Below are positions 21,778-24,209 of a DNA stretch of 36,441 bases, piece after piece (the stretch's first letter is position 1; each line of letters starts with the position of its first letter). This stretch comes from Comamonadaceae bacterium. GTDB lineage: Bacteria > Pseudomonadota > Gammaproteobacteria > Burkholderiales > Burkholderiaceae_C. The DNA is taken from the NCBI GenBank assembly GCA_030602185.1, contig JAUWAE010000006.1, positions 1-36,441 on the forward strand, given 5' to 3'. The notes beneath the pieces were generated by a model. It made no database searches. It saw only the letters and a list, made by a program, of their open reading frames with translations, and had not been told where the DNA came from. Both the position numbers and the translations under genes were made by a program.

Positions 21778-22860
21778 ATGCACCCCAACGCCCTGCAGGA
21801 ACTCGGCGCCACCCTGATGGCGCGCGTCAAAACCTTTGAACACCCCGCCGACGCCACCGTGGCGCAGTTTTTCCGTGAACATCCCAAACTGGGCGCGCGC
21901 GACCGCCACCAGCTGTCGGAACAGGTGTTCACCGCCTTGCGGGCCGAGCCCTTGCCCGACTGGTTGGCCCGCCAGCTGCAGGACGAACTGGGCGACGGCG
22001 CCCGTGATCTGACACTGGCGCTTCAGCAACCCGCCCCGCTCGATGTGCGCGTGAACCTGCTCAAGGCCAAGCGGCCCGCTGTGCTGCAGCAGCTGCGTGA
22101 GGCGGGCCTGGCCGCGACCGAAACCCCGTACTCCCCGTGGGGCCTGCGGCTCGAAGGCAAGCCGTCGCTGCACGCCCTGCCGGCCTTTAAAGACGGCTGG
22201 CTGGAAGTGCAGGACGAAGGCTCGCAACTGCTTGCCCTGCTGCTGGAGCCGCGCCGCAACGACACCGTGGTGGACTTCTGCGCCGGCGCCGGCGGCAAGA
22301 CGCTGGCCCTGGGCGCCATGATGCGCAACCAGGGCCGGCTGTACGCCTTCGACACCTCGGCCCACCGGCTGGACGCGCTCAAGCCCCGGCTGGCGCGCAG
22401 CGGCATCACCGAGGTGCAGACCCTGGCGCTGGCGCACGAGCGCGACGCCCGGCTGCAACGCATGGCGGGCAAGGTGGACCGGGTGCTGGTGGATGCGCCG
22501 TGCTCCGGCCTGGGCACGCTGCGCCGCAGCCCCGACCTCAAATGGCGGCAGACGCCCAAAACCGTGGCGGCCATGGGCGAGGTGCAGTGCAGCATCCTTG
22601 CCGAGGCGGCCAAGCTGGTGAAACCCGGCGGCCGGCTGGTCTATGCCACCTGCAGCCTGTTGCGCGAAGAAGACGAGACGGTGGCCGACGCCTTCGGCGC
22701 CGCCCACCGTGATTTCGTGCCGCTCGATGCGGCCGAGGTGCTCACCCATGCCGGGGTACACGGCGCGAATTCGCTCTGCCGGGCTGGATATTTGCGCCTG
22801 TGGCCCCATCTGCACCAGACCGACGGTTTTTTTGCGGCAGTCTGGCAGCGGCGCGCTTGA
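21778..22860 (+). CDS. RsmB/NOP-family RNA (cytosine-5) methyltransferase
   Basis: The product has 360 residues from ATG 21778. An N-terminal helical region of about 60 residues resembles a reduced NusB-like part. The Rossmann methyltransferase domain has VVDFCAGAGGKTLALGAMM for AdoMet binding. The two family cysteines are Cys242 in VDAPCSGLGTLRRSPDLKW and Cys292 in LVYATCSLLREE; in this family the second is the nucleophile and the first helps release the product. It would make m5C in RNA, probably rRNA. It is shorter than E. coli RsmB (429), so I do not assign rsmB firmly. An open frame continues far upstream, antisense to prfC, and was trimmed at the first sensible ATG. Confidence 0.88.
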   Translation: MHPNALQELGATLMARVKTFEHPADATVAQFFREHPKLGARDRHQLSEQVFTALRAEPLPDWLARQLQDELGDGARDLTLALQQPAPLDVRVNLLKAKRPAVLQQLREAGLAATETPYSPWGLRLEGKPSLHALPAFKDGWLEVQDEGSQLLALLLEPRRNDTVVDFCAGAGGKTLALGAMMRNQGRLYAFDTSAHRLDALKPRLARSGITEVQTLALAHERDARLQRMAGKVDRVLVDAPCSGLGTLRRSPDLKWRQTPKTVAAMGEVQCSILAEAAKLVKPGGRLVYATCSLLREEDETVADAFGAAHRDFVPLDAAEVLTHAGVHGANSLCRAGYLRLWPHLHQTDGFFAAVWQRRA

Positions 22861-22896
22861 CGCGCCTGCCGTCCGACCGGGGTGCTCGGAAAAGAT

Positions 22897-22925
22897 TTGG
22901 CGATTTGGCGCCCCCCACCTAAAAT
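22897..22925 (+). promoter_or_regulatory. Candidate sigma70 promoter for the desaturase gene
   Basis: TTGGCG (22897-22902) and TAAAAT (22920-22925) are separated by 17 bases, giving a start of transcription near 22932, upstream of every candidate start codon of the desaturase. The -10 box is good; the -35 box keeps only TTG. The preceding gene ends at 22860 and no other promoter-like pair is visible in the gap. Confidence 0.45.
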
Positions 22926-22994
22926 CCGAAGGTTTTCCCCCGGCCCGCGCCCAGGCTCCGGGACGGGGTGGATGTGCCTTTTGTGAAAGTGTGT

Positions 22995-24209
22995 ATGGCA
23001 TTGCTTGAATCGGGCTTGAACGGCCTGCTGACCCTCCTGTCCGACGGACTGACCGGTGCCGCGTGGTGGCAGGTGCTCATCGTGGCCCTGGTGATGACCC
23101 ACATCACCATCGTCAGTGTCACCCTCTTTTTGCACCGCCACCAGGCGCACCGCGCACTGGACCTGCACCCGGCGGTGTCTCACTTCTTCCGCTTCTGGCT
23201 GTGGATGACCACCGGCATGCTCACCAAGGAGTGGGCCGCCATCCACCGCAAACACCACGCCAAGTGCGAGCAAGACGGCGACCCTCACAGCCCGCAGGTG
23301 TTCGGCATCAAGAAGGTGTTCTGGGAAGGCGCTGAGCTGTACCGCGCCGAGGCCAAGAACCGCGAAACGATCGAACGCTTTGGCCATGGTACCCCGGACG
23401 ACTGGATCGAGCGCAACCTCTACACCAAGCACTCCCGCCTGGGCGTGAGCCTGATGCTCATCCTCGACGTGGCGCTGTTTGGTGCCCTGGGCCTGGCGGT
23501 GTGGGCGCTGCAGATGGTCTGGATCCCGTTCTGGGCCGCCGGCGTCATCAACGGCATCGGCCACTACTGGGGTTACCGCAACTTCGAGGCCACCGACGCC
23601 AGCACCAACGTGTTCCCCTGGGGCATCATCGTGGGCGGCGAGGAGTTGCACAACAACCACCACACCTACCCCACGTCGGCCAAGTTCTCGGTCAAGCCCT
23701 ACGAGTTCGACATCGGCTGGGTGTACATCAGCGTACTGGCCAAATTCGGTCTGGCCAAACCCAAGAAGACACCGCCCAAGCTGGCGTTCGGTGACGTGAA
23801 GCCGGTAGCCGACGAGAAAACGCTCGAGGCCATCATTGCCAACCGCTACGAAGTGATGGCCGGCTACGCGCGCCAGATGCGCGCGACCGTCCAGGCCGAG
23901 GTCGAGGCCTTGAAGGCCAAGCGGGCCGACGTGTCTTTGCTGGAGGCCGCGCGCCGCTGGCTGCACCGCGACGACGACAAGGTGCCCGCCAAGTACAAGG
24001 CCAAGGTCGAGCAGGCCCGGGCTCAGCACCCCACGCTGGCCAAGATGCACGCGATGCGCGAAGAGTTGCGTCAGCTCTGGTCCAACACCTCGCTCACGCG
24101 CGAGCAGCTCGCCAAGGACCTGCAGGCCTGGTGTCACCGTGCAGAAGAAAGCGGCATCGCCGCGTTGCGCGACTACTCGGTGCGCCTGCGCGCCCTGCGC
24201 GCCGCCTGA
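22995..24209 (+). CDS. Membrane fatty acid desaturase (delta-9 acyl-lipid/acyl-CoA type) with C-terminal extension
   Basis: The product has 404 residues from ATG 22995; GTG 22968 would add nine residues and neither start has a strong ribosome site. The three histidine clusters of non-haem diiron desaturases are present: HRHQAH (47-52), HRKHH (84-88) and HNNHH (219-223). Hydrophobic spans lie near 25-45, 65-78, 152-172 and 175-190. The enzyme would introduce a double bond into membrane fatty acyl chains using oxygen and reduced carrier, at the inner membrane. Residues from about 270 to 404 form a helical, charged extension not needed for catalysis; its end (LAKDLQAWCHRAEESGI and then YSVRLRAL) resembles part of ISL3-type transposases. 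Convergent with the potassium-channel gene; a GCCGCC/GGCGGC inverted repeat spans the stop. Confidence 0.92.
   Translation: MALLESGLNGLLTLLSDGLTGAAWWQVLIVALVMTHITIVSVTLFLHRHQAHRALDLHPAVSHFFRFWLWMTTGMLTKEWAAIHRKHHAKCEQDGDPHSPQVFGIKKVFWEGAELYRAEAKNRETIERFGHGTPDDWIERNLYTKHSRLGVSLMLILDVALFGALGLAVWALQMVWIPFWAAGVINGIGHYWGYRNFEATDASTNVFPWGIIVGGEELHNNHHTYPTSAKFSVKPYEFDIGWVYISVLAKFGLAKPKKTPPKLAFGDVKPVADEKTLEAIIANRYEVMAGYARQMRATVQAEVEALKAKRADVSLLEAARRWLHRDDDKVPAKYKAKVEQARAQHPTLAKMHAMREELRQLWSNTSLTREQLAKDLQAWCHRAEESGIAALRDYSVRLRALRAA

Follow-up and report, generated by a model that had tools for sequence, protein, structure and literature searches.

A DesA-type membrane fatty acid desaturase whose C-terminal tail is probably a captured insertion domain of ISL3-type transposases

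The desA gene in a 36,441-nucleotide stretch of DNA from a Comamonadaceae bacterium (contig JAUWAE010000006.1; the whole stretch will be referred to as the window) raises the question of why a membrane-bound enzyme of lipid metabolism should end in a helical segment reminiscent of a transposase. A sequence-only reading of the window had claimed that the last 130 residues are not part of the diiron desaturase fold, that the terminal segment is ISL3-like and that a domesticated piece of a transposase may have been fused to the enzyme, perhaps as a bundle of interaction helices; the segment in question (23805-24209) comprises residues 271–404 and the stop codon. Sequence comparisons and predicted structures suggest as best explanation that the window gene encodes an ordinary DesA-type membrane fatty acid desaturase with a captured ISL3 insertion domain as its C-terminus.

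The window protein matched the NCBIfam model NF049918 (DesA_fam_desat) with 648.9 bits against a cut-off of 400, covering profile positions 1–383 of 385. Upstream of the ATG start, an in-frame GTG is found at position 22968. A Pfam scan placed PF00487 at residues 24–227, and solved stearoyl-CoA desaturase (SCD) structures fitted the AF2 model of the protein (59-sequence alignment, mean pLDDT 88.3, pTM 0.78) at residues 20–294 with Z of 18.4–19.0. Roughly the last 110–125 residues thus lie outside the diiron core, which bears out the first of the earlier claims. All three histidine boxes are present (Table 1), and H47, H52, H84, H87, H88, H219, H222 and H223 showed no variation across the 59-row alignment; in a weighted set the first-box histidines reached a frequency of 0.98 in DesA and 1.00 in viral homologues. 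The gene lies in a conserved setting, as the same neighbours recur around it: of 72 loci with enough sequence upstream, 69 have a gene there that we take to be rsmB, in the orientation of desA, and a gene that is presumably trxB follows downstream in 54 of 66. The minus strand has an open frame of 498 residues across most of desA (window 22641-24137); it is unlikely to be a gene, long antisense frames being frequent in the GC-rich window.

Table 1: Features of the desA locus, with positions in the window.
Feature	Residues	Position	Strand	Evidence or remark
presumed rsmB, upstream neighbour of desA		21778..22860	+	conserved position
desA-family fatty acid desaturase gene, 404 aa		22995..24209	+	ATG start; translation, ORF list
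Membrane diiron desaturase core	1-258	22995..23768	+	PF00487, SCD match; most viral homologues cover about residues 27-258 and stop there
First histidine box HRHQAH	47-52	23133..23150	+	alignment
Second histidine box HRKHH	84-88	23244..23258	+	alignment; invariant in viral homologues
Third histidine box HNNHH	219-223	23649..23663	+	alignment; invariant in viral homologues
Linker, then the start of helix 274-282	259-278	23769..23828	+	without ISL3 match; NF049919 and PF01610 start at 279-280
ISL3-type alpha-helical insertion domain (tail)	~279-404	23829..24206	+	NF049919, PF01610, hhalign, AF2 helices
NRYE, where transposases have D(2)H	283-286	23841..23852	+	both motif residues replaced
WC..AE.SGI..L..Y...LR	379-399	24129..24191	+	conserved in DesA tails and nearest ISL3 subgroup

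The tail itself was recognised by NF049919, named 'DesA/ISL3 alpha bundle tail', at residues 279–400 (129 bits, cut-off 30) and by PF01610 (DDE_Tnp_ISL3) at residues 280–395 (E 2.6e-10, 41 bits, cut-off 23), where it covers only profile positions 79–190 of 240. The equivalog model for complete ISL3 transposases, NF033550, gave 34 bits and thus stayed below its cut-off of 180. Since the name of NF049919 states the relation between DesA and ISL3, the identity of the tail is already known to NCBI curators and is not new; what is added here are the anatomy of the insertion domain, its lost D(2)H motif and a viral group without the tail. An independent HMM, built from DesA tails alone and scored against 15 ISL3 transposases, reached 67.3 bits with the best of them and at least 36 bits with ten, whereas the remaining five (10.0 to 15.8 bits), including the ISL3 transposase of the window's own genome (10.2 bits), were close to noise. 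The maxima of the controls were 5.8 bits for 50 column shuffles, 2.6 for reversed transposases and 9.3 for 50 sets of shuffled transposases. Profile-profile comparison of the DesA tail with ISL3 by hhalign was significant, with a probability of 99.2% and an E-value of 1.1e-19 over 121 columns. The terminal segment noticed in the sequence-only reading is indeed ISL3-like, its WC..AE.SGI..L...S..L falling within the best-conserved part of DesA tails and the nearest ISL3 transposases.

Which piece of the transposase this is can be read from the alignment, which opens at the strand VVYD with the D(2)H motif and closes midway through the last insertion helix, ahead of the catalytic Glu. The matched ISL3 stretch is flanked by the second Asp and the Glu, the DDE residues themselves lying outside it, and the tail is on this alignment the alpha-helical insertion domain of an ISL3 DDE transposase. 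Helices of the DesA tail were predicted by AF2 at residues 284-308, 314-319, 332-344, 346-363, 369-385 and 389-399. For comparison, the ISL3 transposase L273 was modelled with middling confidence (pLDDT 71.0, pTM 0.60) from five sequences, none of them common to the DesA alignment, and its insertion domain showed helices at 230-252, 257-270, 273-276, 279-291, 293-310, 314-330 and 334-355. Compared by order and length, the two independent models agree in helix order, and three consecutive pairs (DesA 332-344, 346-363 and 369-385; ISL3 279-291, 293-310 and 314-330) have equal lengths of 13, 18 and 17 residues. The first two insertion helices differ in length, the second comprising 6 residues in DesA versus 14 in ISL3, and the C-terminus of DesA falls approximately halfway along the last ISL3 insertion helix. 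The best solved match of the ISL3 model was the ISCth4 transposase (PDB 6xg8, E 4.6e-5); fold searches with the DesA tail (Foldseek, VIA-align) yielded generic bundles only, with no transposase among the matches listed. The proposed domesticated transposase piece is hence supported, and can be narrowed to the helical insertion domain, with the direction of transfer judged separately below.

At the D(2)H positions the window protein carries N and E, and neither the DDE triad nor D(2)H is present. The Asp of this motif was found in 41 of 41 ISL3 sequences versus none of 114 distinct DesA, the His in 41 of 41 versus one of 114; among 42 representative DesA tails, the Asp occurred in none and the His in three. 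By contrast, the hydrophobic and glycine core of the insertion domain was retained: L323, L358, W362, W379 and A383 as well as S386, G387, L391, F/Y394 and L398 recur both in DesA tails and in the 10 sequences of the nearest ISL3 subgroup. Basic residues of that subgroup are lost in DesA at positions 297, 299, 310, 314 and 327, whereas 293, 325, 355 and 399 are basic in both and 284, 296 and 321 are newly basic in DesA. The zinc ribbon and helix-turn-helix (HTH) models PF14690 and PF13542, which both matched the ISL3 transposases L150 and L159, found no match in the window protein. The tail is also more variable than the core, with a mean majority frequency of 0.68 versus 0.80. Since the fold-defining residues were kept while D(2)H and several basic positions were lost, the tail looks exapted for its fold; at the level of sequence, the pattern is that of a fold preserved after the DNA chemistry had been given up.

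In the cellular DesA examined, the tail is a constant part of the enzyme. Searching 398 genomes of the window's phylum, all 61 matches to NF049918 over the cut-off extended to profile positions 383–385 of 385, the next-best match below the cut-off scoring 110.6 bits; among 369 genomes of the class, 180 contained a match over the cut-off, and all matches listed extended to 383–385. All 165 ORFs from cellular or plasmid loci with a strong core match (137 distinct) carry the tail, and when the 30 that came from loci retrieved by the tail model itself are left out, the count is 135 of 135. Residue 394 or beyond was reached in all 80 nearest named loci among the matches listed, which were obtained with six search patterns, two of them within the tail. 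The tail is consequently conserved in close desaturases, a point on which the earlier suggestion of a fused piece depended. Several candidates for a tail-less cellular DesA were examined and rejected. Three genomes of the class had matches below the cut-off, and their genes, a split one in G526, a piece at a contig edge in G700 and one with stops in G571, still matched at tail positions, and two partial plasmid copies were broken genes, one from Caballeronia (L476) with a clear tail match and one from Burkholderia ubonensis plasmid pATCC31433 (L477) with a weak match at residues 377–399 (E 0.07). Six distant desaturases whose NF049918 match ended at positions 346–366 were considered as possible intermediates, but had no tail match. 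Two diverged DesA paralogues, present as second copies in G294 (L160) and G213 (L161), had no PF01610 match; their tails were still positive for NF049919, with 82 and 65 bits. As side observations, the desA gene of G526 is split by approximately 2.3 kb (L473, G526:C1:1035734-1036042, and L470, 1038385-1039242), the profile matches overlapping slightly at the break (98–103) as an insertion would give, and an IS21-type istB gene lies close to the L477 remnant. One locus titled Akkermansia muciniphila (L068, a MAG) encodes a DesA 70% identical to that of the window and is probably mis-titled or derived from a mixed bin.

A different picture was obtained for viruses. Searching IMG/VR with the window protein gave at least 599 relatives, the best 80 of which matched mostly over about residues 26–265, and a second scan starting from a viral protein yielded 80 more loci overlapping the first set (L192-L271 and L311-L390, e.g., L222:1489-2190). 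A strong core match was found in 160 viral ORFs, of which L360 and L337 were dropped as cut or incomplete; the remaining 158 (110 distinct), all with their stop in view, were without the tail in every case, the stop following 0 to 13 residues after the core match. Because some tblastn matches of viral contigs ran on to residues 265–300, past the viral stops, the downstream stretches were searched for a decayed tail; none was found in 159 stretches, tblastn giving no match at E 1 and the HMM at most a noise-level 6.0 bits. Core identity of the viral proteins to DesA was 48–65% compared to 24–37% for eight tail-less cellular desaturases, and the nine histidines checked were all invariant in the viral set. 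Within the aligned core and at the thresholds used, conservation in DesA coincides with rarity in the viral set at just two positions, 57 and 89, and the reverse holds for 57, 199 and 227; the viral N-terminus is shorter. In named phages of INPHARED, the window protein had no match at E 1e-5. Twenty proteins of five viral loci, the desaturase of L353 included, were scanned against PHROGs, 13 of them receiving a family and seven none; the matches include both subunits of ribonucleotide reductase (L369) and an HNH endonuclease (L343).

Phylogenetically, the viral sequences form one clade (100/99). Free trees placed the outgroup within DesA, which would mean that the viruses lost the tail; the outgroup branch, however, is very long. 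Holding DesA together was not rejected, with p-AU values of 0.61 for a set of 71 rows, where it raised the likelihood, and 0.31 for a set of 38 rows with mostly viral outgroups. In neither set did any of the 200 bootstrap trees have DesA as one side of a branch, again with a very long outgroup branch. Seventy further loci with more distant viral desaturases were also without a tail match. Some of these desaturases occur as neighbouring copies within one phage contig, two in L395 (105-905, 1474-2256) and three in L402 (159-941, 1438-2238, 2205-2990); five copies in each of two viruses have been reported (PMC7300359). A further viral contig contains an ISL3 ORF (L465:1501-2502) with about ten KVI repeats, a 9-base tandem, before KRMAYGY, and with part of the core missing.

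As the viral enzymes combine a similar core and intact histidine ligands with the absence of the tail, the tail is probably not involved in the diiron chemistry and dispensable for catalysis, the activity of the viral enzymes being a prediction. Likewise, with D(2)H and several basic residues gone, work on DNA appears unlikely. Insertion domains of other transposases serve in the control of multimerisation, in binding partner proteins and in DNA contact (PMC7780238), and on the strength of these roles an interaction or control module is judged the most likely function; the interaction bundle of the sequence-only reading is plausible. The tail would form a helical module in the cytosol, joining the enzyme with itself or with a partner, such as an electron donor, a lipid enzyme or a regulator, and this tethering would tune activity or stability of DesA; it would act outside the chemistry and without binding DNA, and phage enzymes with a similar core would be expected to function without it. 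The cytosolic placement follows from the usual topology of the family, and both termini of the desaturase of Pseudomonas sp. AMS8 are thought to be cytosolic (PMC5863719). Taken together, we assign a probability of about 0.62 to the reading in which the tail has its origin in ISL3 transposases, has the boundaries given in Table 1 and plays an interaction or control role on the cytosolic side. The role taken alone is a tentative proposal by analogy, to which we would give slightly less than even odds. More speculative still, and in our estimation rather doubtful, is the idea that the ISL3 insertion domain became the built-in assembly or control part of DesA and was then fixed in cells, so that a tail-free phage enzyme could desaturate host membranes outside that control. 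Viral enzymes might, on the other hand, have other partners or substrates. A C-terminus acting as an LAA-like degradation tag was considered and set aside, as the last three residues vary (ARA in 22, AHA in 17 and RYA in 10 of 114).

The best rival to an interaction or control module, though an unlikely one, is that the tail attaches to the surface of the membrane or to anionic head groups of phospholipids, in which case a basic bundle made for DNA phosphates would have been re-used for the substrate of DesA. Its net charge is indeed positive, with a median of +6 and values from −1 to +11 across 114 DesA, the basic positions 293, 325, 355 and 399 were kept from the nearest ISL3 subgroup, and DesA of P. 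aeruginosa acts on intact phospholipids (PMC10634369). Nevertheless, the closest ISL3 relatives are more basic still (+8 to +13 in the seven computed), five basic positions of the nearest subgroup were given up, and viral homologues with a similar core do without the tail altogether. A positive net charge is moreover common on the cytosolic face of membrane proteins.

Where the tail came from was addressed by an unrooted domain tree (139 columns) in which 37 DesA tails were combined with 33 ISL3 insertion domains. The DesA tails fell on one side of a branch (support 100/98) and adjoined seven ISL3 transposases (97/93; L272, L273, L274, L275, L280, L285 and L156) from Burkholderia cenocepacia, Vibrio pelagius, one genome of the window's class and four viral contigs. 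ISKox3 (L283) belongs to the other group of the tree, as does the one ISL3 ORF without stops found elsewhere in the window's genome (contig C105, 468 aa). We consider the tail most likely an old piece of a transposase and infer from these comparisons a single capture in the direction from ISL3 transposase to desaturase, since ISL3 is phyletically wider than DesA in the searches made. ISL3 transposases are present on plasmids of Cyanobacteriota and Bacillota (the Bacillota one near noise with the tail HMM), and the NF049919 tail model matched in control genomes of Corynebacterium and Methanosarcina; DesA above the cut-off was found in none of 14 control genomes, and the ten plasmid records with at least 80% DesA coverage were all Pseudomonadota by organism name. 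Genome searches for DesA covered the phylum and class of the window and, beyond Pseudomonadota, plasmids, the 14 controls and the nearest-loci matches listed. Because the tree is unrooted and the genomes were those of one phylum and class, the direction of capture rests on partial phyletic evidence. The opposite course, in which a desaturase was the donor of the domain to ISL3, or a third protein its donor to both, draws on that same tree, where DesA tails and ISL3 each form one side of a branch, and on the slight survey of DesA outside Pseudomonadota; against the wider distribution of ISL3 it appears improbable. A third carrier was sought among the listed matches to PF01610 and NF049919 in the 398 genomes of the phylum, and all of these, judged by match range and frame length, were DesA tails, ISL3 transposases or fragments, with no other fusion among them.

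Even less probable is that the tail still binds nucleic acid, which would make DesA a membrane protein touching DNA. Its net basic charge and its ancestry in an insertion domain, which in other transposases touches DNA (PMC7780238), would agree with such a function, but 113 of 114 DesA lack the His of D(2)H and all 114 the Asp, basic residues specific to the nearest subgroup have disappeared, and neither HTH nor zinc ribbon was carried along. That the likeness reflects nothing but generic helix composition without homology can practically be dismissed, because, although both proteins are helical bundles and the fold-search matches of the tail are generic, the profile-profile E-value of 1.1e-19, controls at noise level that do not recreate the ISL3 match, a common sequence motif and three helices of equal length all speak against it.

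The probably captured insertion domain belongs to a common desaturase of beta- and gammaproteobacteria, and the remaining interest lies in its function and in the tail-less viral group, with which the role of the tail becomes directly testable by swapping or removing it. If the proposal is true, the cell and virus enzymes represent a natural experiment on a captured insertion domain in an enzyme unrelated to DNA. The capture of DNA-binding or catalytic domains of transposases by their hosts is well known. For an insertion domain alone captured by a membrane enzyme of lipid metabolism, no example was found among the best matches in the open-licence literature, and the same search of open-licence papers returned no paper on the DesA-ISL3 relation among its best matches. 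The word 'transposase' does not occur in the main text of PMC5863719, nor do 'tail' and 'transposase' in that of PMC10634369.

Among known systems, the window protein is nearest to the DesA enzymes covered by NF049918 and NF049919, which it matches over its full length with nothing that sets it apart. The enzymes of P. aeruginosa and Pseudomonas sp. AMS8 (PMC5863719) are of the same kind, the activity of the window protein being predicted; phospholipid delta-9 desaturation is stated for P. aeruginosa DesA (PMC10634369), and a C-terminal extension of the AMS8 enzyme, Val253-Ala394, was missing from the template and left out of its model (PMC5863719). Virus-encoded desaturases (vFAD) with conserved histidine boxes have been described, some of their clades without microbial members (PMC7300359), and they resemble the viral clade reported here in being phage-borne and in their histidine boxes; the absence of the host tail from the viral form is not mentioned in section 9 of that paper. 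ISL3 DDE transposases share with the DesA tail the helix order of the insertion domain and the motif W...A..SG...L..F...L, whereas DesA, unlike them, has no zinc ribbon, HTH, RNase H core, DDE triad or D(2)H. In ISCth4, a member of the IS256 family, the corresponding alpha-helical insertion domain, which bears a C/DxxH motif, is flanked within the RNase H core by a strand on one side and a helix on the other (PMC7780238). ISCth4 is the best solved match of the ISL3 model, but it is absent among the matches listed for the DesA model.
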